Shown in pieces: positions 50,333 through 60,988 of a stretch of DNA of 64,000 nt. The notes beneath the pieces were generated by a model. That model saw nothing but the letters and a program-made list of their open reading frames with translations. It had not been told where the DNA came from and made no database searches. The translations under genes and the position numbers were made by a program. This DNA comes from Methylobacterium sp. (GTDB lineage: Bacteria; Pseudomonadota; Alphaproteobacteria; Rhizobiales; Beijerinckiaceae), in the NCBI GenBank assembly GCA_020252645.1, contig JADCCN010000002.1:248001-312000 (forward strand). The letters are read 5' to 3'. Positions within the stretch are counted from its first letter, which is position 1; every line of letters begins with the position of its first letter.

Positions 50333-50437
50333 TAGAGCATGCTGTGAAAAAGTGGAATCCGGTTTTTCACAAAAAGCATGCGATAATAATAAGATAAGAG
50401 CATGATGTGCTTCCGTCTGAACACATCATGCTCTAGC
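50333..50437. repeat. Palindromic repeat family A, copy 4
   Basis: Same orientation as the copy at 9884 and nearly identical over 105 bp, including both hairpins and the AT-rich linker. It borders a truncated integrase-like remnant. Confidence 0.9.
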
Positions 50438-50602
50438 CCGAGCTTGCGCCAAGACCGTTACGCTGACGGAGGGTTCGTCTGTCAGGTCAATCTTGAAGCC
50501 GCGCCCTGCCGCTTTGGCGCGAACGGCCTGCGGGATTCGCTGGACGAAATGCCGATTTTCGGTCCCGGACCGCTTCACGGGAGAGACAAGCCAGAAGAGC
50601 AT
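50438..50602 (-). pseudogene. N-terminal remnant of a tyrosine-recombinase-like gene
   Basis: Minus-strand frame: VSPVKRSGTENRHFVQRIPQ, AVRAKAAGRGFKIDL, TDEPSVSVTVLAQ. The pattern (basic start, then F.QRIP..VRAK..G) resembles the N-terminus of integrases with a DUF6538-like domain. It stops at repeat A after about 55 residues. Assignment is by recall and uncertain. It lies just outside the proposed left end of the island. Confidence 0.35.
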
Positions 50603-50688
50603 TGTAGCGCAGCTTTGTAGCACAGTCGCGCTCGCGCAACACTCTGATAGGGCTTAAGCTTTTGGCGCATGGAGCGAACCCAAAAGAA

Positions 50689-50703
50689 TGGTGCCAGGAG
50701 AGG
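50689..50703. repeat. Proposed distal attachment site (copy of the tRNA-Leu 3' end)
   Basis: TGGTGCCAGGAGAGG matches the complement of the tRNA-Leu 3' end at 59390-59405 (TGGTGCCCAGGAGAGG) except for one missing C, in the same orientation. It coincides with the change to more AT-rich DNA and lies about 70 bp outside a motif repeated near the integrase. Confidence 0.6.
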
Positions 50704-50773
50704 CATCATAAATCGATCTTTAATATCTGATATTATTATATTATTCTGTTTTAGTTTTGTCACAAGGCCAACG

Positions 50774-50787
50774 CTGAGGCCAACATT
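50774..50787. repeat. Candidate integrase arm-type site, left
   Basis: CTGAGGCCAACATT, 13 of 14 identical and in the same orientation as 59255-59268 beside the integrase start. About 70 bp inside the proposed left attachment site. Confidence 0.5.
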
Positions 50788-50927
50788 TTGGTGGCCCTGC
50801 AGGGCGTTACGCCTAGTAGCGGTAGGGCTACGAAAAAAATTTTCGTCGCCCCTGTCGCCCATAGGGCTATTTCCAGCCTCGCCATTCGAGTGTTAACTTT
50901 TCGTCCAACTATTGGGCGGGGTTCGAC

Positions 50928-52418
50928 ATGCGTATTCTGGCTTTGCTCCTCAGCATTATGTTCGCGGCGTGCTTGCCTGCACGCAGTCAGGCTCCAGACA
51001 ATCGCCTTCTGGAGTTTTACGCTTCGCTTGATCCTGACATTCGGGTCAATCTTCAGCGCGCCCTGATGTGGGCGGATGCTTATGTTGGCATCGCCGATGG
51101 TTCCTTTGATCGACGCTCTATTGAGGCGGTTCGCACCTTCCAAAGAAACCTGAATCAAGCGCCTACCGGAATGTTGACCGGTGAACAGGTCAAAGAACTG
51201 GCACAGCGCGCCAATCGCATCGAGGCTGCCTTTAACTACCGGCTCCACCACGACAGCGCGACAGGCGTGACCGTTGGGCTTCCGATGACGTTCGTAGACA
51301 AGTCCGCCCCCACACGGCGCGGCACGCAGTTTACCTCCCAGAACGGCGAAGTTGACCTAACCACCATTCGCATTCCGTTGGCAGAGCGCACCTTGTCGGA
51401 TCTCTACAGGCTCCACACGACAAGGTCGGGGCGGAAGGTCAGCTATTCGGTCTTCCGGGGTGATTGGTTTGTTGTGACCGGAGTTGAAGCGAACAAGCAT
51501 TTCTATATCCGTGCCCATGCTTGGGGCGACGACATTCGCGGCTTTGCCATCAGCTATCCAGAAGAACACGCGAAGGTTTTCGGGCGGCTTTCAACCGTCA
51601 TGTCGAGCGATTTCAAGCCGGATTCGTCGGCGCAGTCGGTGGCGCAGGCTCGCATGAACTGGGGTAACTTCTCCAATCGGTTTGCAACCGCCCAGCCCCA
51701 ACGCCCGGCTCCAGCACCCGGAATTGTCGCTGCTGCACCGCCGACCCCTCAGCCGCCTTCTCCGCCCGTTGGTGGCCCAAGTGAGCCTGCAAAAGGCGGT
51801 GTTTCCACCGGCACGGGCTTCCTTGTGTCGAGCCAAGGGCATTTCCTCACCAATGCCCATGTTGTCGAGCAATGCCGTCAGGTCGGTGTGGGTGTTTTTG
51901 GAAACGCGACGGTGGTGGATCGAGACAAGACCAATGACCTGGCCTTGTTGAAAGTCGATGCGGTCGTGAAGGGAAAGCCTCTCACTTTCTCGCAGATTGG
52001 CCCCCGCTTGGGTGAAGAGGTGATGGCTTTGGGTTATCCGCTGCCATCACTTCTGCAGAATGGCTTGAACGTCACGAAGGGCGATGTGTCGTCGCTGGCA
52101 GGGATTGGCGGAGATTCCCGCTTCCTCCAGTTTACCGCTGCCATTCAGCCGGGAAATTCGGGCGGGCCGCTGGTCAATCGACGCGGTGCCGTCCTCGGCG
52201 TTGTGACTTCCAAATTGAACGCCATCAGGGTTGCTTCAGCCGTTGGCGACATTCCGCAGTCTATCAATTTCGCCATCCGTCCGGAGTTGGCGGAGCTGTA
52301 TCTTCGTCGGCATGGAATCGCGATTGCGCGGGCTCCGGATGCCGAAAAGCCAATGGAAGCGCATGAACTCGTTGCGGCCATTCAGGATGCTGTCAGCCTC
52401 GTTATCTGCACCCAATAG
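50928..52418 (+). CDS. Secreted trypsin-like serine protease with a peptidoglycan-binding-like domain
   Basis: Exported protein of 496 residues. Signal peptide about 1-22 (MRILALLLSIMFAACLPARS); a Cys at 15 gives only a poor lipobox. A PG_binding_1-like segment (about 55-95) contains SFDRRSIEAVRTFQRNLNQ. A middle domain of unknown type (105-240) is followed by a Pro-rich linker (256-288). The trypsin-like domain has the triad His311 (LTNAHVV), Asp337 (TNDLALLKV) and Ser411 (QPGNSGGPLV). DegP-like but without PDZ. Cargo gene of the element, possibly cell-envelope directed. Confidence 0.85.
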   Translation: MRILALLLSIMFAACLPARSQAPDNRLLEFYASLDPDIRVNLQRALMWADAYVGIADGSFDRRSIEAVRTFQRNLNQAPTGMLTGEQVKELAQRANRIEAAFNYRLHHDSATGVTVGLPMTFVDKSAPTRRGTQFTSQNGEVDLTTIRIPLAERTLSDLYRLHTTRSGRKVSYSVFRGDWFVVTGVEANKHFYIRAHAWGDDIRGFAISYPEEHAKVFGRLSTVMSSDFKPDSSAQSVAQARMNWGNFSNRFATAQPQRPAPAPGIVAAAPPTPQPPSPPVGGPSEPAKGGVSTGTGFLVSSQGHFLTNAHVVEQCRQVGVGVFGNATVVDRDKTNDLALLKVDAVVKGKPLTFSQIGPRLGEEVMALGYPLPSLLQNGLNVTKGDVSSLAGIGGDSRFLQFTAAIQPGNSGGPLVNRRGAVLGVVTSKLNAIRVASAVGDIPQSINFAIRPELAELYLRRHGIAIARAPDAEKPMEAHELVAAIQDAVSLVICTQ

Positions 52419-52426
52419 ACAAAGGC

Positions 52427-52837
52427 CTAGCCTGTCGAGGTTGAAACCGCAGGCTCTTGCCGCGCGATAACGCGGCATGCGTCACGAAGCGTTACTTCTT
52501 GGTTGGGGTAACGCCTGATGGCTGCATCGAATGCAGCACGGCCAACGCTGATGGAATCGCAATGGGCAATGACAGCGATGATCCGGCCTTTCTCGTCCCA
52601 AGCCTCAACGCGAACGTTGCTATCCACCCGCCCGAAGGCGAGGCAATGCTTTCGGTTGTAGATGCTGATTTTGCCCCGCGTGAAGCCGTAGCTTGTGGCA
52701 TTCTCGCGATCCCGCGCTAGTGCCTCCAGATCCCAAAGCAGGGCAGCGATGGCCGCGCGCGCATCGCCATCGAACTCGGTTAGAACGGCATCTATTTCCG
52801 CTTGGCGAGCAACTTCCGCTTGTGCTTTCGAATCCAT
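52427..52837 (-). CDS. Small conserved hypothetical protein of the element
   Basis: 136 residues, family not recognised. It begins MDSKAQAEVARQAEIDAVL, with a predicted helix DARAAIAALLWDLEALARD and a more beta-rich middle FTRGKISIYNRKHCLAFGRV. GGAGAGG lies 6 nt before the ATG at 52837, which favours this start over upstream ones. It converges on the protease gene with 8 bp between stops. Confidence 0.6.
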   Translation of the reverse strand: MDSKAQAEVARQAEIDAVLTEFDGDARAAIAALLWDLEALARDRENATSYGFTRGKISIYNRKHCLAFGRVDSNVRVEAWDEKGRIIAVIAHCDSISVGRAAFDAAIRRYPNQEVTLRDACRVIARQEPAVSTSTG

Positions 52838-53166
52838 GACTGACCTCTCCAAGAAAGAACAGACACAGAACATTGACGAAGGCAAGCGGCGGAAAGGCGC
52901 GCTGGATTTTGCGAGCACGCTTCCCCCCCCTCAGCCTGCTGAACGACCTTGAAGATATGCGCTTACGTGCCCTCGCGCACACTCATCACGCATATCGTGC
53001 AGACTAGGCTAGCATCGGGCCGAATTTAACGCGGATCATTTCCGGGCCGTTAGAGAAGCAGTAATGCGTGCACATCGCTTTCATAGTTGGTGATTTACAG
53101 AATCAAGAACATCAATGTTGATGGGGCGGTGGCAAAGCTACACAATCTTTCTCCAGGCTCGGTCCT
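52838..53166. other. Spacer upstream of the GHKL-STAS-membrane cassette
   Basis: 329 bp between divergent genes, expected to hold both promoters. It contains a run of eight C (52923-52930). Short plus-strand frames here lack ribosome-binding sites. The last 100 bp are AT-rich. Confidence 0.4.
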
Positions 53167-54360
53167 ATGAAATTACTGAAACCGTGGGTTCGCGCTCACC
53201 ACATCCGAAAAACAATCCAAGCGACCCGGCGTGCTGCTGCCGCTAATCAACGGCGAATTCTTCTGTCTATCTCCGAGGGCATGAAAAAGGATCCTCAACA
53301 CGGGACCGTAGAAACTCTTGGCCCAGAAGGATTTGCGACGAGAAGGCAAGTCGGCCGCATTAGCCAGGTTCCTTCAGTCCTATCATTTCGATCAAATTAT
53401 GAGGTAACGGCAAAATTCGTAAATGAGCTCGCAAACGGGATTAATCGCAGTCTCGACCGCCCTGCTCCCAATCCCAACAGGCACCAGCGCCGGGCGCAGC
53501 TGAGGAATCCGTCGCCAATGGGGAGTTACTGGGATTTCTCAACCGTAAATGAGATTTCCATCCTGCCCGCTTTGATGATTGCGGCTCAATACGACAGAGC
53601 CAGAATTTTGCGACCCACCTGGCGCCCAAAAGCCATCAATGTGCATCGTTGGGAACCGCAAGTTCGACGATTTTTGGAGGAAGTCGGCTTTCTGGAACTG
53701 TGCGGAGTGCGCGATAAAACCGAGGAAATGCTTCACTACTCGGACGTATCTCTTTTGCGCTTCCGACGCGGTGAAACGGTCGATGGTCAAGCGGTCGGGG
53801 AGTATTTTGCGCAGCTCGGTATCGATCTCGGCACCGAAAATCCGATGCTCTATGATGCAATTACGGAAGCGATTACGAACGTCATCAACCACGCATATGG
53901 GAAAGAGGAACTAAACCCCGCCCAGACCGTTAAGGCATGGTGGCTTTGTGCAATGCTGAAAACTGGGCAAGCTCACAAGGAGCTTTCGATTGTCGTTTAT
54001 GATCAAGGAGCGTCCATCCCTCGAACTTTGCCTTACTCCACAAAGTACGAGTCGATCAAAAAGTCGCTGCTAGATCTGTTCGGTATTGATTTCGATTCCG
54101 ACGACCCGACCAACGACGCGAAGGCAATTTCATGTGCGATGCGTCCAGGGGCCAGCGCGACTGGTGAGAGTCACCGAGGACGAGGCTTGGCGCAAATTGT
54201 CGAGGTGCTTGACCTTTCCCTAGGAGGACATCTCAGCATATATAGCAGGCAAGGTTCAGTGGAGGCCACAAAGTCCCCCGGTGGGTCCGTGGAGATATCC
54301 CCTGTTAACCGCGCGATGGCAATAATTGGGACGGCGATTGTCTGGCATCTCGTCCTTTGA
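53167..54360 (+). CDS. GHKL (histidine-kinase-like) ATPase, first gene of a three-gene cassette
   Basis: 397 residues, soluble. The C-terminal half is a HATPase_c/GHKL fold: N-box EAITNVINHAYGKE (E234, N238), G1 box VVYDQGASIP (D279, G281), a long ATP lid (about 282-333), G2 box ESHRGRGLAQIVEVL (338-340), and a last strand GTAIVWHLVL. No dimerisation His, transmembrane helix or receiver domain is seen. The N-terminal 130 residues are basic; 130-180 could be a small STAS-like or linker domain (FLEEVGFLELCGV). The stop is 10 bp from the STAS-like gene. It may phosphorylate that partner, as SpoIIAB/RsbW-type kinases do. Confidence 0.8.
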   Translation: MKLLKPWVRAHHIRKTIQATRRAAAANQRRILLSISEGMKKDPQHGTVETLGPEGFATRRQVGRISQVPSVLSFRSNYEVTAKFVNELANGINRSLDRPAPNPNRHQRRAQLRNPSPMGSYWDFSTVNEISILPALMIAAQYDRARILRPTWRPKAINVHRWEPQVRRFLEEVGFLELCGVRDKTEEMLHYSDVSLLRFRRGETVDGQAVGEYFAQLGIDLGTENPMLYDAITEAITNVINHAYGKEELNPAQTVKAWWLCAMLKTGQAHKELSIVVYDQGASIPRTLPYSTKYESIKKSLLDLFGIDFDSDDPTNDAKAISCAMRPGASATGESHRGRGLAQIVEVLDLSLGGHLSIYSRQGSVEATKSPGGSVEISPVNRAMAIIGTAIVWHLVL

Positions 54361-54370
54361 GGGTTCCGTT

Positions 54371-54724
54371 ATGGCAACGGTGATCAACATTGCGAAGGAT
54401 TTTTCTCCCTTTCCTGGCGGACGGGAACGGAGCGATGGACCGCATACCGGTCAAGCTTTTCGCGAGGACTTTTTGGCTCCGGCGCTTGAAAAGGGGCATG
54501 TGACGCTCGTTCTCGATGGAGTGATGGGACTGCCTTCGTCGTTTTTCGAGGAGGCATTGGGCGGGCTGGTGCGAACCCGTTTCACCCTTAGGCAGCTGAG
54601 AGAGCTTCTTACAATTGAAGCCAAGACAGCGAGGATGTCGCTGTACCCAGCTCGGGGCTGGGATTTCATTGAGCGGGCTGCGATGCACCCTCCTTCACCG
54701 GGGCCCCTCAAAAAATCAGCCTAA
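54371..54724 (+). CDS. STAS-like protein (DUF4325 type), second gene of the cassette
   Basis: 117 residues. It carries the DUF4325 pattern: FSPFPGGRERSDGPHTGQAF, REDFLAPALEKGHVTLVLDG, VMGLPSSFFEEALGGLVRTR. Strand-then-SSF-helix is the layout of anti-sigma-factor antagonists, where a Ser at this point is phosphorylated by a GHKL kinase; here Ser56 and Ser57 are candidates. It lies 10 bp after the GHKL gene and 16 bp before the membrane-protein gene. A longer upstream frame overlaps the GHKL gene and is not used. Confidence 0.8.
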   Translation: MATVINIAKDFSPFPGGRERSDGPHTGQAFREDFLAPALEKGHVTLVLDGVMGLPSSFFEEALGGLVRTRFTLRQLRELLTIEAKTARMSLYPARGWDFIERAAMHPPSPGPLKKSA

Positions 54725-54740
54725 TTGGGTAGGTGCCCCG

Positions 54741-55235
54741 ATGTCGGCCGTATTGAGTTTCATTCTAGGCGCTCTCACGACCGCATTTCTGCGCGGCTGG
54801 CAGTACAAACATGAACATTGGATTGGTCGAGCAAGCAGTCTCGTAAAGCTGGCAGCTGAGATAGCTGACCAAGCAGCAAAATACTGGTGCGGCGCACATT
54901 CTACCGAAGCCAAAGATGTAACCGAAAATCGAGTGCTAGAGACTGCAATCCTTGGCAAGCTGATCCAATTGGACGGGCTTTTCAAAGGTGTAGAACGCCA
55001 CCTAGAGCCCAACGAAGCGACGGCGATAAAGGATGCGCTGACAGAATTTCACGACGCCACGAGCGGGGGTGATTTTGGCGCACTCGAAAAGATCAACTTT
55101 CAATCTGGCTATGAAAGGGCGCGACGAATACACGCTGCTGTGGCGGACTTAGTTTGCGTCACTCATTCGGCGGTTGACGAAGCAATGCGACATAACTTTT
55201 GGGGAAGGGCTTTTTGGCGTACCAATCGCCGGTAA
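54741..55235 (+). CDS. Membrane-anchored helical protein, third gene of the cassette
   Basis: 164 residues, no family recognised. One N-terminal hydrophobic segment MSAVLSFILGALTTAFLRGW, then a basic and aromatic stretch (QYKHEHWIGRA), then a long, mostly helical cytoplasmic part (SLVKLAAEIADQAAKYW; LETAILGKLIQLDGLFKGVE; GYERARRIHAAVADLV). With the GHKL and STAS-like proteins it could be the membrane output or sensor. No nuclease or pore signature is visible. Confidence 0.65.
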   Translation: MSAVLSFILGALTTAFLRGWQYKHEHWIGRASSLVKLAAEIADQAAKYWCGAHSTEAKDVTENRVLETAILGKLIQLDGLFKGVERHLEPNEATAIKDALTEFHDATSGGDFGALEKINFQSGYERARRIHAAVADLVCVTHSAVDEAMRHNFWGRAFWRTNRR

Positions 55236-55417
55236 GCATCGGAATTTCAACACTGTTTTCTCCCTGACAAACAGGGATGCGCTCCCGCTATCCTCCCAAG
55301 ATATATATGCTCACCCGTGAACAGGGGTAGGCAACGGGCTTTGGTCCTTGAAATCGCCGATAGAAAACGGGCAATAGCGGCACTGGCAGGCTTCAGACTC
55401 TACAACGTGCCCCCTTT

Positions 55418-55909
55418 TCAGGGGGTGGTGTGCCCCCTGTTTGGCGTGTCGGGATATTCCTTGTGCTGCTTTTGCCATTCGTGGGTAGGGTGGTTGCCCC
55501 TGAAATCCGGAAGCCATGTCAGGCGATATTTCGACGGCATGTTGAGTCTCCCGAAACTCCGACCGCCCCGCACCATAACCCTCACAAACCCTGCCTCTTC
55601 CAATTCTCGAATGGCGTTGGTGATCCCGTTCTTTGCGACGCCATATTCGATGAATTGCTCATAGGTCACGATAAGTGCGCCGTTCTCGCGTCCGGCATGG
55701 GCCATATGCTCCAGTTGCAATCGGGTTAGGCAAAGCATAGCGGCGCGTGAGAGCCCAACATAGGCCCGGCTTTCCATCATTTCCCGCGACATCCATCCCC
55801 AAGCCTGATCCTTGGGTGGCCCAAGCATCTCCCGAAAACGGGCATCGGCAACCGCACTTGTCGAGCGTCCCTTGGCATCGTGCCGGTTACCGGTGTGGCG
55901 CACGCTCAT
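55418..55909 (-). CDS. Winged-helix-like conserved protein of the element
   Basis: 163 residues from the ATG at 55909, preceded by GGGAGGG at 7 nt. Central part: SRAAMLCLTRLQLEHMAHAG, RENGALIVTYEQFIEYGVAK, NGITNAIRELEEAGFVRVMV, then PSKYRLTWLP. This looks like a winged helix used by element replication or regulatory proteins of alphaproteobacteria. A CCCCC-TTTTCA-GGGGG stem (55411-55426) overlaps its stop and faces the cassette. Confidence 0.6.
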   Translation of the reverse strand: MSVRHTGNRHDAKGRSTSAVADARFREMLGPPKDQAWGWMSREMMESRAYVGLSRAAMLCLTRLQLEHMAHAGRENGALIVTYEQFIEYGVAKNGITNAIRELEEAGFVRVMVRGGRSFGRLNMPSKYRLTWLPDFRGNHPTHEWQKQHKEYPDTPNRGHTTP

Positions 55910-56017
55910 CGGCAAGCCCTCCCAAACGAGTCAGGAAAGGCCAGGATGGCCAAGGCCCGATCTAAAGTAGGCTGACATAGGAAAACCGCGCGCGGCCATC
56001 CTAGGCCTGTTTCTGAG

Positions 56018-56287
56018 TCAGGAAGCGCCATTGCCGGCCTCCCCAATCAAGCCGTGCTCGCACGCGATGCGATAAGCCTCGGTCATCTCATCGAGCAGGG
56101 GCGCGAGCGCGTTTATGGGGATTGCAAAACTCTTGTCGCCATAGCCGATGGAAACCCAAGCGCCTGAGTTTGGGGCCAATACGCGCGCATGCGCGCGCGT
56201 GTTAGTGGCACCTGTTCCTGTCCTGTTGGCAGGAGTGGGGAAAGGGGCGGTTTCCCGCCCCCCGTTGGTGTTGTCGCTGTCCATCAT
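56018..56287 (-). CDS. Small hypothetical protein of the element
   Basis: 89 residues, not recognised. A low-complexity N-terminus (Asn/Thr/Pro-rich) precedes a compact part WVSIGYGDKSFAIPINALAP, LLDEMTEAYRIACEHGL. It overlaps the upstream gene by 4 nt (ATGA). Confidence 0.5.
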   Translation of the reverse strand: MMDSDNTNGGRETAPFPTPANRTGTGATNTRAHARVLAPNSGAWVSIGYGDKSFAIPINALAPLLDEMTEAYRIACEHGLIGEAGNGAS

Positions 56288-56580
56288 GCCGCTGCCTTCG
56301 TTTCAATGATGCGGCAGGGCGTGCGGAGCACGTAGCGCCCATGCGTGCCTTTGAATGGGCCGCTGTTCGGAATATCCAGCGTTTCAATATTCAGCCCCTC
56401 GCGGCGAAGGATCATCACGTAGTGCGACCATCGCGGAGCGGGCCGCTCGATGGGCGTCACGCCACGCGCCCCGGCTTCGATGAGCCGCGCGAGCGTCCAA
56501 GCGTAGCGGCCTTCAAAGGTGCGGGTGATTGCCCCGCGCTCGGTTTCGATTTCAACAGTGATGCGCACAATGTCAGCCAT
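56284..56580 (-). CDS. Winged-helix-domain protein of the element
   Basis: 98 residues from the ATG at 56580. It starts MADIVRITVEIETERGAI, then FEGRYAWTLARLIEAGARGV, PIERPAPRWSHYVMILRREG, LNIETLDIPNSGPFKGTHGR, YVLRTPCRI: a small winged-helix pattern seen in alphaproteobacterial elements. The start overlaps the end of the next upstream gene by 8 nt. Confidence 0.6.
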   Translation of the reverse strand: MADIVRITVEIETERGAITRTFEGRYAWTLARLIEAGARGVTPIERPAPRWSHYVMILRREGLNIETLDIPNSGPFKGTHGRYVLRTPCRIIETKAAA

Positions 56581-56794
56581 GTTCGGCCTCCATGCGAAAG
56601 CCCGCGTGTTCCGCGACAAGCCGGGCAATTGAGGGGGAAAGGGCAAAGCGGTGCGAGAGAATCCGCACCACGCGAGGTTCGGGCGTCCGTGAGTTTCTGG
56701 ACGCTATGGCGTTGGCCCAATCGAAGAGAGGCAAGGGAGAAGGCGCACCTTCCCTGTTGCGGCGCGAGGCCGCCCTATGCGATAATTTTGGCAT
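56573..56794 (-). CDS. Small conserved hypothetical protein of the element
   Basis: 73 residues: LPLFDWANAIASRNSRTPEP, RVVRILSHRFALSPSIARLV, AEHAGF. A helical pattern that recurs beside winged-helix and AlpA genes in such elements; function unknown. It overlaps its downstream neighbour, supporting a real coupled gene. Confidence 0.55.
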   Translation of the reverse strand: MPKLSHRAASRRNREGAPSPLPLFDWANAIASRNSRTPEPRVVRILSHRFALSPSIARLVAEHAGFRMEAEHG

Positions 56795-56857
56795 TGGTTT
56801 TCTCCGTGATTGCCAATCAAGGCCCGGGGCGCTGCAATCGCCGCCGGGCCATATGCA

Positions 56858-57061
56858 TCATGCGGCCTTCTGGCGGGTGTTACATGGGCCGCAAAGGCTT
56901 TCGATGTATCGCCGGATCTCGCTTTCGCGGATGAAGGTGCGGCGGCCATTCTTCACGATGGCCAGCCTGCCGGCTTTAACTTCCTCATACGCTTTGGTGG
57001 ATTTCATTCCGGCCATGCTGATGGCCTCGGAAAACGGAACAAGACGATCGATTTGCTTCAT
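56858..57061 (-). CDS. AlpA/excisionase-like helix-turn-helix protein
   Basis: 67 residues: RLVPFSEAISMAGMKSTKAY, EEVKAGRLAIVKNGRRTFIR, ESEIRRYIESL. This is the MerR/Xis-like fold of AlpA proteins, with the wing KNGRRTFI. Such proteins usually control or assist excision of P4-type elements. It lies between the small genes and the integrase block. Confidence 0.8.
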   Translation of the reverse strand: MKQIDRLVPFSEAISMAGMKSTKAYEEVKAGRLAIVKNGRRTFIRESEIRRYIESLCGPCNTRQKAA

Positions 57062-57158
57062 TCGATTGGGCTCCAGCGTCGCCGAACGATAACGAACGGC
57101 TTGGAGCGAACATCAGCGATTGAATTGGTGTTGCGCACGTTTTTTCGTGTGCATCAGG

Positions 57159-57992
57159 TCAAGTTTTTTGGCGTTTCAGTCTGTGGCCTTTCGCATCGAA
57201 AATGCGTGCTTCATCTCGGCAGAGTTGCTCAAAGTCGTCACCCTTGAACCAACGCAGCACAGTGCTAGGGGCAAGGCCCATCTCCTGTGCAACTGCGCGA
57301 ATAGACAAAGGCTGTCCCATTGCAATCATTTGGCCGCCCTTATGGACGGCCATTCGCTTGTCGGAGGCTATACCGAATCTTTCCTGTGCCAAATTATCGT
57401 GACCAATCGTCCAAAAATAAATCATTGCCAAGAAATCAGCGCTAACACTTTTGATATTTCCAATGTATTGTCTGGCTATTATTGCGATGAGGAATTCAAC
57501 AAACGATCTAGATGCTATCTCTTTTCTTCTGACGCTCTTATTTGAGCGCAGGAATTTTGATTGATATTCAATTATCGCTAGGCAGGCTTCTGAAATTGCG
57601 GACTCTTCGCCTCGTTGAATGTCTATGATCGAAACATGCTCCAGACCAATTAAGGCCATATCCTGTTGGAAAAGCGTGCCGCAGTCTTCTGTTACGGTTT
57701 CATCAAAGATTGGGAAAAATCTTGGGTTATCGCGGCGCGTTTGGACGTATTTGCGCGGCGTAGGATTCAACGCGAAGTCTCTTTGGAGCCGCTGCTTCTT
57801 TGTCTTTGAAGGGTAGCTACCGACCAAAATTCCGGCAATCAGAGCGTCTCTTTCATCCTCAAACACCTCTGCGTATCGGTGGCTTGGGATCTCTATGGAG
57901 AATAGTCCTTTTTCGTTCCGTTTCGGTCGAAAACTCTCCGCTCCGCTATATGCGTCGACAATCGTACGCGATATTCCTTTGCGACGCGCCAA
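57159..57992 (-). CDS. Uncharacterised protein with C-terminal helix-turn-helix, coupled to the integrase
   Basis: 277 residues, family not recognised. Polar N-terminal part, a central helical region (SFVEFLIAIIARQYIGNIKS; ADFLAMIYFWTIGHDN), and a C-terminal HTH: SIRAVAQEMGLAPSTVLRWF at about 230-250. Its start is only 2 nt after the integrase stop, so the two are probably co-translated. Base composition is lower in GC than the integrase. It may be an element regulator or accessory cargo. Confidence 0.65.
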   Translation of the reverse strand: MARRKGISRTIVDAYSGAESFRPKRNEKGLFSIEIPSHRYAEVFEDERDALIAGILVGSYPSKTKKQRLQRDFALNPTPRKYVQTRRDNPRFFPIFDETVTEDCGTLFQQDMALIGLEHVSIIDIQRGEESAISEACLAIIEYQSKFLRSNKSVRRKEIASRSFVEFLIAIIARQYIGNIKSVSADFLAMIYFWTIGHDNLAQERFGIASDKRMAVHKGGQMIAMGQPLSIRAVAQEMGLAPSTVLRWFKGDDFEQLCRDEARIFDAKGHRLKRQKT

Positions 57993-57994
57993 AC

Positions 57995-59224
57995 TCAGAC
58001 CCTCCCAAACGCCACAACCTTCGCGCCATCGCGCATCGTATCAATGCGATTGGCCCACCATGCCGCCATGCGCACGCGCTCGTCCCAATGGTCGCTGCGC
58101 TGATAGGAGCGGCGCACCGCATTCGGCTCCTGATGCGCAAGCGCGCGCTCGATGGCATCGGCAGAGAACCTGTTGCTCTCATTCAGCATGGTTGAAGCGG
58201 TGGCACGGAAGCCGTGCGAGGTCATTTCATCCGGGCCATAGCCCATGCGGCGAAGTGCGGTGTTGAGGGTGTTTTCGGAAATCGGCCGCTTCACGCTGAC
58301 GGTGCCGGGGAACACCAAGGCCTGATTGCCGGAAATGGGCAGCAGACTTTCCAGAATGGCGATGGCTTGTGGGGGCAGGGGAACGCGGTGCTCGCGGCGC
58401 ATCTTCATCCGCGCGGCGGGAATGGTCCAAACGCCGGCCTCCAGATCAAACTCACGCCATTCAGCTTGGCGCAATTCGCCGGGGCGGGGAAAAAGCAGGG
58501 CCATCAGCTTTAACGCCGCGACGGTGGTTGCCTGCCCCTGAAAGCAATCGATGGCGCGCAACAAGGCTCCAAAGGCCTTTGGCTCCAGAATGGCCGCGCG
58601 GTGTTTCACCTTGGGCTTGGCGAGTGCGCCACGCAGGGCAAAGGTCGGATCGTTCGCGGCACGACCGGTGGCGATGGCGAAGCGAAACACTTCCCCGATG
58701 CCAGCGCGCAAGCGCGAAGCGGTTTCCAGATGCCCCTTGTCTTCCACCTTCTGGAGAATGCGCAGGATCTCAGCCGATGAGATTTCCGTGACCGGCCTTT
58801 TGCCAAAGGCATCGCCGGCAAGGCTGTAGAGCCATTCCCGCTTGCCGATGGTGTTGGATGCCTTGCCCTCGCGGCGCTTCTTGTCGAGCAATTCCGCCGC
58901 GATGACGGCGAAGGTGTTGGCTTCGCTGTTGGCCTTCTCCAGCGCCTTGTTGGCCTTGTCGGTGCGAAAGTGCTCCACCGGGTCATGCCCCGCGAGCAAG
59001 AGCCGCTTGGCCTCGTCGCGCTTTTCGCGCGCTTCCGCGAGCGTCACGGTGGGGTATGGGCCGATGGAATACTTCTTCTGCTTTCCGGCTGCATCCCGAT
59101 AGGCGAGGCACCAAAGCTTCGATCCGTTCGGCTTGATCCAGAGTTGAAGTCCCCCGCCATCAGACAGCTTGCGAAGCGTTTCGCCTGCTTTGGCTTGGCG
59201 GATAGTCAGGTCGGAAAGCGACAT
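57995..59224 (-). CDS. P4-type tyrosine integrase
   Basis: Site-specific recombinase of 409 residues. The N-terminal arm-binding DUF4102-type domain has KLSDGGGLQLWIKPNGSKLW and YSIGPYPTVTLAEAREKRDE. Catalytic residues are visible: Arg247 in FPRPGELR, His337 and Arg340 in SHGFRATA, His364 in ALAHQEP and Tyr374 in RRSYQRSDHWDERVR. The ATG at 59224 gives the family N-terminus MSLSDLTIRQAKAG. It starts about 165 bp from the tRNA-Leu 3' end, the target of this class. Confidence 0.95.
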   Translation of the reverse strand: MSLSDLTIRQAKAGETLRKLSDGGGLQLWIKPNGSKLWCLAYRDAAGKQKKYSIGPYPTVTLAEAREKRDEAKRLLLAGHDPVEHFRTDKANKALEKANSEANTFAVIAAELLDKKRREGKASNTIGKREWLYSLAGDAFGKRPVTEISSAEILRILQKVEDKGHLETASRLRAGIGEVFRFAIATGRAANDPTFALRGALAKPKVKHRAAILEPKAFGALLRAIDCFQGQATTVAALKLMALLFPRPGELRQAEWREFDLEAGVWTIPAARMKMRREHRVPLPPQAIAILESLLPISGNQALVFPGTVSVKRPISENTLNTALRRMGYGPDEMTSHGFRATASTMLNESNRFSADAIERALAHQEPNAVRRSYQRSDHWDERVRMAAWWANRIDTMRDGAKVVAFGRV

Positions 59225-59254
59225 GGTGTTGGCCCCGGTGGCGTCCACAAAGGA

Positions 59255-59268
59255 CTGAGGCCAGCATT
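59255..59268. repeat. Candidate integrase arm-type site, right
   Basis: CTGAGGCCAGCATT, 31 bp upstream of the integrase start and about 120 bp inside the tRNA end; partner of 50774-50787. Confidence 0.5.
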
Positions 59269-59331
59269 GGGGCCAACAAATCGCGCGGGTGTCAACGAAG
59301 GCTCCCGGCCAATTACGGGCGATTCACAGCA

Positions 59332-59358
59332 AAAAACCGGCCTTTTGAGCCGGTTTTT
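59332..59358 (-). terminator. Strong hairpin terminator between integrase and tRNA-Leu
   Basis: Ten-base arms AAAAACCGGC / GCCGGTTTTT with a 7-nt loop. On the minus strand GCCGG is followed by six T, 30 nt beyond the tRNA-Leu 3' end, so it should stop tRNA transcription from entering the element. It may also act on the other strand. Confidence 0.85.
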
Positions 59359-59389
59359 GGTCATTCACGAATGTTCGCGAAGGGGTGTG

Positions 59390-59405
59390 TGGTGCCCAGG
59401 AGAGG
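59390..59405. repeat. Attachment site at the tRNA-Leu 3' end
   Basis: TGGTGCCCAGGAGAGG, the complement of the tRNA 3' terminus; an imperfect direct repeat lies at 50689-50703. Confidence 0.6.
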
Positions 59406-59474
59406 ACTCGAACCTCCACGGTGTTACCCACTGGTACCTGAAACCAGCGCGTCTACCAATTCCGCCACCTGGGC
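59390..59474 (-). tRNA. tRNA-Leu (anticodon CAG)
   Basis: An 85-nt class II tRNA: acceptor GCCCAGG / CCTGGGC, D-arm GGCGGAATTGGTAGACGC, anticodon stem CTGGT / ACCAG with loop TTCAGGT (CAG), variable arm GTGGGTAACACC, T-arm GGTTCGAGTCC, discriminator A and CCA encoded. Its 3' end is the integration target of the neighbouring element. Confidence 0.95.
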
Positions 59475-59593
59475 CTCGGGCGAGCTTCTGATCGGTCGGC
59501 GGACAATTGTCAATATTCGAAAGCAGGCCTTGTCGAACCTTGCGGGCCGCCCGAGTTGAAAAGGTGTCTTCAACCCCCGCGCGAGGCGACACC

Positions 59594-59968
59594 ATGAACC
59601 CCGGATCGCGTTTGAACACCCCGCGAGGCTTCCTGCCGCGTCAACCGCTGTTCCGCCTGCTCGCGGTCAACGGCCTCGCCGGTGCCGGCCTCGGCATCCT
59701 CTTCGTGATCGGCATCCTGGCCCTGGATATCGCCGGAATCCGGTCGCTCCTCACAAGCACCGGCGAATGGGTGATCGGGCTCGCGCTCCTTACCATGGGC
59801 TCGATGACCACGTTCGCCTCCGTGGCGATGGGCGGGGCCATCATGCTGATGCGCAGCCCCCCGGATGCCGGAACGGGCGGGCCGGTGGGCGGCCACGGCG
59901 CGCTGGTGCCGGTGCGCGTGCGGCGCCATGCGCGCGTTTCTGCGCCCCCGCGCCTCTGGCCCGATTGA
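59594..59968 (+). CDS. Small hypothetical membrane protein
   Basis: 124 residues with two hydrophobic segments (LLAVNGLAGAGLGILFVIGI and LLTMGSMTTFASVAMGGAIM) joined by a short loop, and a basic, Pro-rich tail. No family recognised. The ATG at 59594 is chosen because the longer frame upstream enters the tRNA spacer. Confidence 0.6.
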   Translation: MNPGSRLNTPRGFLPRQPLFRLLAVNGLAGAGLGILFVIGILALDIAGIRSLLTSTGEWVIGLALLTMGSMTTFASVAMGGAIMLMRSPPDAGTGGPVGGHGALVPVRVRRHARVSAPPRLWPD

Positions 59969-60025
59969 TTGCACCATGCGAATTGACTAGACCGGTCGCA
60001 TTCTCTCAACGGTCGGGGTTCGCAC

Positions 60026-60988
60026 ATGGCGCGGCTGGTCACGATTTTCGGAGGCTCGGGCTTCCTGGGGCGGCATCTCACGCAGGCTCTCGCGAAGCGC
60101 AGCTGGCGGGTGCGCGCCGCCGTGCGCCGGCCGGATCTCGCGGGCCATCTCCAGCCGCTGGGCATGGTGGGGCAGATCCATGCGGTGCAGGCGAATCTGC
60201 GCTATCCGGATTCGGTGGCGCGGGCGGTGGATGGCGCCGATGCGGTGGTGAACCTCGTCGGCATCCTGCATGAGGGCGGCCGCCAGACCTTCTCGGCCGT
60301 GCAGGCGCAGGGTCCGCGCATCGTGGCGGAAGCCGCCGCAAAGGCGGGCGTCGAGAGCCTCGTGCAGGTCTCGGCGATCGGGGCCGATCCGAATTCCCCG
60401 GCGGATTATGCCCGCTCCAAGGCGGCCGGCGAGGCGGCGACGCTCGCCGCTTTCCCCACGGCCGTCATCATGCGGCCCTCGATCGTGTTCGGGCCGGAAG
60501 ACCAGTTCTTCAATCGCTTCGCGGATATGGCGCGGTTCCTGCCGTTCCTGCCGCTGATCGGCGGCGGGGAGACGAAATTCCAGCCGGTTTACGTGGGCGA
60601 TGTCGCCGAGGCGATTGCGCGCGCGCTCGAAGGTGCAGCAAAGCCTGGCACGACCTATGAACTGGGCGGCCCGGAAGTGAAGAGCTTCAAGGCGCTGCTT
60701 GAATATATTCTCGCGGTCACCGGCCGCTCGCGCCCGCTTGTGCCCCTGCCTTTCCCCATCGCCCGGCTGCAGGCCAGCGTGATGGAACTGCTGCCCTCGC
60801 CGATGCTGACGGTCGATCAGGTTCGGATGCTCGAGACCGATAATGTGGTCAGCGCGCAGGCCATCGCGGCCAGGCGCACGCTCGCGGGTCTCGGCGTGAC
60901 GCCGACGACGATCGAAGCGGTTGTGCCGAGCTATCTCTACCGCTTCCGCAAGCACGGCCAGTTCGAGCGCGCCGAAATCGCGCGCTGA
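60026..60988 (+). CDS. NDUFA9-like atypical SDR (complex I-associated) protein
   Basis: NAD(P)-binding extended-SDR protein, 320 residues. Rossmann start VTIFGGSGFLGRHLTQALAK; AVVNLVGILHEGGRQTFSAV; the active-site-like stretch LVQVSAIGADPNSPADYARS-K without a catalytic YxxxK dehydrogenase context; FGPEDQFFNRFADMARFLPF. This is the family of the complex I accessory subunit NDUFA9, common in alphaproteobacteria. Likely role: complex I assembly or quinone-related function. Confidence 0.85.
   Translation: MARLVTIFGGSGFLGRHLTQALAKRSWRVRAAVRRPDLAGHLQPLGMVGQIHAVQANLRYPDSVARAVDGADAVVNLVGILHEGGRQTFSAVQAQGPRIVAEAAAKAGVESLVQVSAIGADPNSPADYARSKAAGEAATLAAFPTAVIMRPSIVFGPEDQFFNRFADMARFLPFLPLIGGGETKFQPVYVGDVAEAIARALEGAAKPGTTYELGGPEVKSFKALLEYILAVTGRSRPLVPLPFPIARLQASVMELLPSPMLTVDQVRMLETDNVVSAQAIAARRTLAGLGVTPTTIEAVVPSYLYRFRKHGQFERAEIAR

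Follow-up and report, generated by a model that had tools for sequence, protein, structure and literature searches.

A VapKSC-like trio of GHKL kinase-like protein, STAS-like protein and membrane-anchored protein on an integrated element of Methylobacterium

In the VapKSC system of Escherichia, a kinase (VapK) is taken to phosphorylate VapS, with release of the VapC nuclease; the third gene encodes the effector, and the operon gives ∼2-log protection against one phage (EMBO J 2026; PMC13373217). VapK is thought to be activated by single-stranded DNA, as proposed from a model and from mutants (PMC13373217). In the CapK/CapS pair, an HTH-STAS-GHKL kinase acts with a STAS substrate that carries a conserved serine; CapS has a winged-helix DNA-binding domain and represses the downstream operon (PMC13373217). 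Here we describe a trio of genes in a 64,000-nucleotide stretch of Methylobacterium sp. DNA (contig JADCCN010000002.1, positions 248,001 to 312,000; “the window”, to which all coordinates refer). The trio lies on an integrated element and encodes a 397-residue GHKL kinase-like protein (53167..54360, + strand), a 117-residue STAS-like (DUF4325) protein (54371..54724, +) and a 164-residue third protein (54741..55235, +). All three open reading frames (ORFs) are in place where a first-pass annotation, made from the sequence alone, had located the cassette, with gaps of 10 bp (kinase/STAS) and 16 bp (STAS/third gene). The trio looks like a sibling of VapKSC in which the third gene of the kinase-STAS switch encodes a membrane-anchored protein.

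VapKSC and the trio have their genes in the same order, with the kinase first, the STAS gene second and a third gene last. Note that VapKSC was represented in our comparisons by three loci of its composition (kinase, DUF4325, PIN) from Pseudomonadota genomes (L175, L176 and L178, the PIN match of L176 being under the Pfam cut-off), not by the published sequences themselves. The trio kinase is homologous to the kinases of these loci: hhalign of the trio kinases (A7) against the VapK-like kinases (A8) aligned residues 117-397 (98.7%, E value 1.9e-16). The STAS proteins are of DUF4325 in both cases, those of the three stand-in loci being more weakly homologous to trio STAS proteins than kinases are to kinases. 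Both systems occur in phage or immune contexts, and a STAS protein with a conserved Ser/Thr is likewise found in the trio, where Ser57 is invariant (129/129 aligned proteins). VapKSC has a PIN nuclease, however, where the trio has a membrane-anchored helical bundle (PIN domain: 0 matches in 104 third proteins). Because the PIN nuclease is the defining feature of VapKSC, the trio was placed outside VapKSC proper; and since the same switch logic has already been described for VapKSC, what is new is that a membrane protein occupies the third position. The first-pass annotation had taken the trio as a whole to be novel. That stands insofar as no named system of this exact composition was found in PADLOC or in the literature searched, but not for the switch logic, which is described for a sibling, VapKSC (PMC13373217). 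Relatives 61-68% identical to the L176 STAS protein occur on viral contigs L210-L212.

A kinase with a STAS partner bearing a conserved serine also recalls CapK/CapS; CapS, however, carries a winged-helix domain, whereas the 117-residue trio STAS protein has DUF4325 alone above cut-off. With SpoIIAB-SpoIIAA and RsbW-RsbV the trio shares the predicted kinase fold, the ATP-binding boxes and a STAS partner whose corresponding loop contains serines. Unlike these, the trio kinase has an extra N-terminal region, its third member is a membrane protein and, in agreement with the first-pass annotation, no sigma factor was found among the 10 element ORFs scanned, a distant sigma factor being possible.

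Conservation of the trio across loci

With an alignment of STAS proteins as bait, 346 relatives turned up on genome contigs and 135 on viral ones; from each collection, the 80 highest-ranking were retained. Together with the window, three plasmids and one phage, these gave 165 loci, the viral share of which is set by this choice of collection. Two duplicates (L001 and L005, of the window and L028, respectively) were removed before this count; redundant loci remain in it. A set of 129 was obtained by removing 36 of the 165 (loci whose kinase was at least 80% identical to one already in the set, or in which the kinase or the third ORF was missing). This set yielded 125 third proteins after removal of 4 outside the homology group, and a topology set of 108 after removal of 21 without a segment of at least 1.3 in mean hydropathy. 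The alignments behind the folding and the profiles comprised 67 kinases and 101 third proteins.

The trio is a conserved unit. A kinase gene lies directly upstream of the STAS gene in 157/165 loci, and in 3 of the other 8 the STAS gene starts at the first base of the contig. A third ORF lies directly downstream in 161/165; the remaining 4 contigs stop 42 to 441 bp past the STAS gene. Searches with the kinase by tblastn found three plasmids (Novosphingobium, Vibrio and Acinetobacter) and one phage (Marinobacter AS1). Apart from the window, 397 genomes belonging to the same order gave a clear relative in G135 and a partial match in G185. The order kinase, STAS, small protein recurs in the three plasmids, in phage AS1 and in G135, the third ORF of the Novosphingobium plasmid being unannotated. 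With a kinase profile, matches were obtained in 14 of 398 genomes of the phylum at E≤1e-3. At E≤1e-20 the STAS gene adjoins in 9/9 loci and the third gene is found by profile in 7/9; at another of these loci (G460), a 150-residue ORF with an N-terminal hydrophobic segment occupies the expected place.

A profile of the third protein gave matches in 13/398 and 13/357 genomes in two genome samples. At E≤1e-8 these amount to 18 distinct loci, all of which have an adjoining STAS gene (18/18), the kinase being present in 15, partial in 1, undetected in 1 and unjudgeable in 1 due to a contig end. Toxin-antitoxin logic predicts such a pattern, with the STAS gene always beside the third gene and the kinase sometimes partial or missing. 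Seven weaker matches (E 8.4e-5 to 7.8e-4) have neither a kinase nor a STAS gene nearby. Co-occurrence of the three genes across genomes, a check proposed in the first-pass annotation, was found; for its other half, co-occurrence in defence islands, see below.

DUF4325 itself is broader than the trio, with 31 places in 29/398 genomes. Elsewhere it is found at the C-terminus of lone long proteins and in loci with a PIN protein in third place. Loci L170, L172, L173, L179, L181 and L184 encode ∼330-350-residue proteins with a DUF4325-type C-terminal domain, an architecture distinct from the trio.

Kinase and STAS-like protein

The kinase consists of an N-terminal extension, a probable STAS-like domain (about residues 70-190) and a GHKL domain (about residues 193-397). 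A GHKL kinase with an N-terminal STAS-like domain is also a trait of VapKSC; for the trio kinases, the evidence for this domain is indirect, through the alignment with the VapK-like kinases. Pfam scans returned HATPase_c (E 1.2e-4) and HATPase_c_2 (E 6.4e-4), both under the Pfam cut-offs, and no STAS domain in any of 67 trio kinases. The GHKL boxes, whose loss would have counted against the first-pass proposal, are intact in the window kinase (E234, N238 and H242; D279 and G281; R337-G-x-G340) and are kept across the family alignment. SpoIIAB was the best, though weak, sequence match (E 0.036; RsbW, E 0.5), and SpoIIAB is also the closest structural match of the predicted kinase fold.

In the STAS-like protein, DUF4325 (PF14213) passes the Pfam cut-off (E 6.9e-8). 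Besides the invariant Ser57, Ser56 is kept in 121/129 aligned proteins and aligns with a serine of the L178 STAS protein. The partner-switch logic suggested at first pass, with Ser56 or Ser57 as the candidate phosphorylation site, is thus upheld at the level of sequence. Among other collections, PHROGs placed the kinase and the STAS-like protein each in families of unknown function, and PADLOC models run on 70 family kinases returned DrmA in 2/70 (best E 4.1e-5).

Third protein and reading of the switch

The third protein has no match in Pfam or PHROGs. Comparison of 161 third proteins with phmmer (E<1e-3) connected 155 of them into a single group. An N-terminal segment with mean hydropathy of at least 1.3 is present in 132/161, versus 104/629 control ORFs of similar length from the same loci; at a threshold of 1.6 the counts are 95/161 and 74/629. 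Control ORFs were read from the first start codon and trio ORFs from the start nearest the STAS stop, giving these counts a small bias in favor of the trio. In the window protein this segment is predicted to be a single N-terminal membrane helix, followed by a helical bundle. Lys and Arg are commoner in the 15 residues after the segment than in those before it in 108/108 non-redundant proteins with a segment, in keeping with the membrane anchor proposed at first pass; because of this excess, the bundle should face the cytoplasm (positive-inside rule). Structure prediction gave an all-helical bundle plus membrane segment. This model resembles chemoreceptor and histidine-kinase sensor domains among many other helical bundles, with scores within the tool's warning range.

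Our preferred reading, to which we give slightly less than an even chance, is that the trio acts, by analogy with VapKSC, as a three-gene phospho-switch with the membrane-anchored protein as output. In the resting state, the cytoplasmic bundle of the third protein would be bound by the STAS protein and held inactive. Upon an infection or damage signal, which may be single-stranded DNA as put forward for VapK, the kinase would phosphorylate Ser57 or Ser56 of the STAS protein, as homology and conservation suggest. The phosphorylated complex would then dissociate, and the freed candidate effector may act on the inner membrane, where it could, for instance, oligomerize and cause damage or keep phage DNA from entering. 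The infection would then be aborted or the phage excluded.

Several observations weigh against this reading. PADLOC 2023 models gave 0 matches for the three window proteins, and no controlled evidence was obtained for defence-island neighborhoods of trio loci. No third gene was seen at G485, one of the nine strong kinase loci. Six of the 161 third proteins, that of the Acinetobacter plasmid among them, fall outside the homology group, and 29/161 have no clear N-terminal hydrophobic segment at 1.3, several being barely under the threshold. The similarity of the kinase to SpoIIAB and RsbW is weak in sequence. Ser56, which we take to be the position matching the SpoIIAA phosphoserine, is Ala, Val or Pro in 8/129. 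No firm counterpart of the VapK residue for single-stranded DNA could be located on the trio kinase, where the candidate Phe124 is Phe in 95/125 and Leu in 25/125. Finally, third-protein distances correlate with kinase distances given STAS (partial r 0.52, n=125) more than with STAS distances given the kinase (partial r 0.23, n=125), which does not favor contact with the STAS protein alone, though that protein is short and well conserved.

Given this tracking of the kinase, the membrane protein may instead be the kinase's sensor. It would then sense a membrane event (phage adsorption, injection or depolarization) and control the kinase, with the STAS protein passing the signal on to a target at another place in the genome. 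We consider such an input role unlikely: the likeness of the bundle to sensor domains agrees with it, but the bundle should be cytoplasmic where that of such sensors is periplasmic, the third gene stays with the STAS gene at all strong loci (18/18), two of which have a partial or undetected kinase, and the third gene of VapKSC encodes the effector (PMC13373217). Somewhat less probable still is a non-killing prophage exclusion or lysogeny module, in which the membrane protein stops DNA entry of superinfecting phages and the kinase and STAS protein tune its activity. The trio of phage AS1 adjoins a Cro/CI-type regulator and 80/165 loci come from viral contigs (by collection choice), as such a module would suggest; against this, 80 loci are on genome contigs and 3 on plasmids, the scanned element ORFs include no virion gene, and no phage phenotype is known for the trio. 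A classic sigma-factor partner switch of the SpoIIAB/RsbW type, with the membrane protein as an accessory, is very improbable. SpoIIAB and RsbW are the kinase's best, weak, sequence matches, but the constant neighbor is the membrane protein, the scanned element ORFs include no sigma factor, and a sigma-70 domain was found in at least 1 of 140 immediate neighbors of other loci (among the 25 of 134 families listed).

Extending the phospho-switch with membrane output beyond the window is somewhat more tentative. The trio may belong to an unnamed, widespread immunity class on prophages, plasmids and islands, with a GHKL kinase that senses infection or damage, phosphorylates a STAS antitoxin and so frees a membrane-acting toxin; the kinase-STAS switch would then be a general chassis for unrelated effectors (PIN nuclease, membrane protein). 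If the mechanism holds, STAS serine phosphorylation would be a general trigger of cell-suicide or exclusion proteins, beyond the single nuclease case, and a role is suggested for some members of DUF4325, which Pfam names as a domain of unknown function. Since the family is large (the 346 genome and 135 viral stretches above), natural variants are on hand for probing the kinase's signal and the membrane protein's action.

In a set of six viral loci that are nearly identical, L163 and L166 have a frame-broken third gene, whereas that of L160, L162, L164 and L167 is intact. The break is a homopolymer length difference just past the membrane segment, with kinase and STAS frames intact. Such a break would be tolerated in a costly effector; phase variation, gene loss and sequencing error are all candidate causes.

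Host element at tRNA-Leu

The element spans ∼8.7 kb (50689-59389). Its left repeat, attL (50689..50703, +), reads TGGTGCCAGGAGAGG and its right repeat, attR (59390..59405, +), reads TGGTGCCCAGGAGAGG; the latter lies within the 3′ end of the insertion site, a tRNA-Leu (cag) gene (59390..59474, − strand). The repeat is imperfect in the window, and a single intact copy is present in the same-genus genome G754. G754 has the empty site: the matches to window positions 50475-50703 and 59390-60900 lie side by side on a single contig, with a slight overlap. On one side of the trio is a gene for a trypsin-like serine protease with a peptidoglycan-binding domain (50928..52418, +). On the other is a leftward block of small genes that ends in a tyrosine integrase (57995..59221, −; the start was chosen at 59221, and the ORF can extend to 59248) beside the tRNA gene. 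A small HTH_17, excisionase-like protein is encoded at 56858..57061 (−), its match to the NCBIfam excise model (E 0.033) being under cut-off. No virion gene was found among the 10 element ORFs scanned, the ORF at 52427-52918 (−) being outside the scan. These features bear out the first-pass view of the cassette as mobile-element cargo beside an integrase.

Another genome of the genus (G757:C157) carries a relative of the serine-protease gene, with 69% identity at the DNA level. Outside the element, window positions 50333-50437 hold a dispersed ∼105-bp repeat with two strong hairpins (folding z −7.8) and no Rfam match. There are 17 further near-full-length copies in the same genome (96-99% identical) and 15 in G754, and the repeat looks like a REP/BIME-type element.
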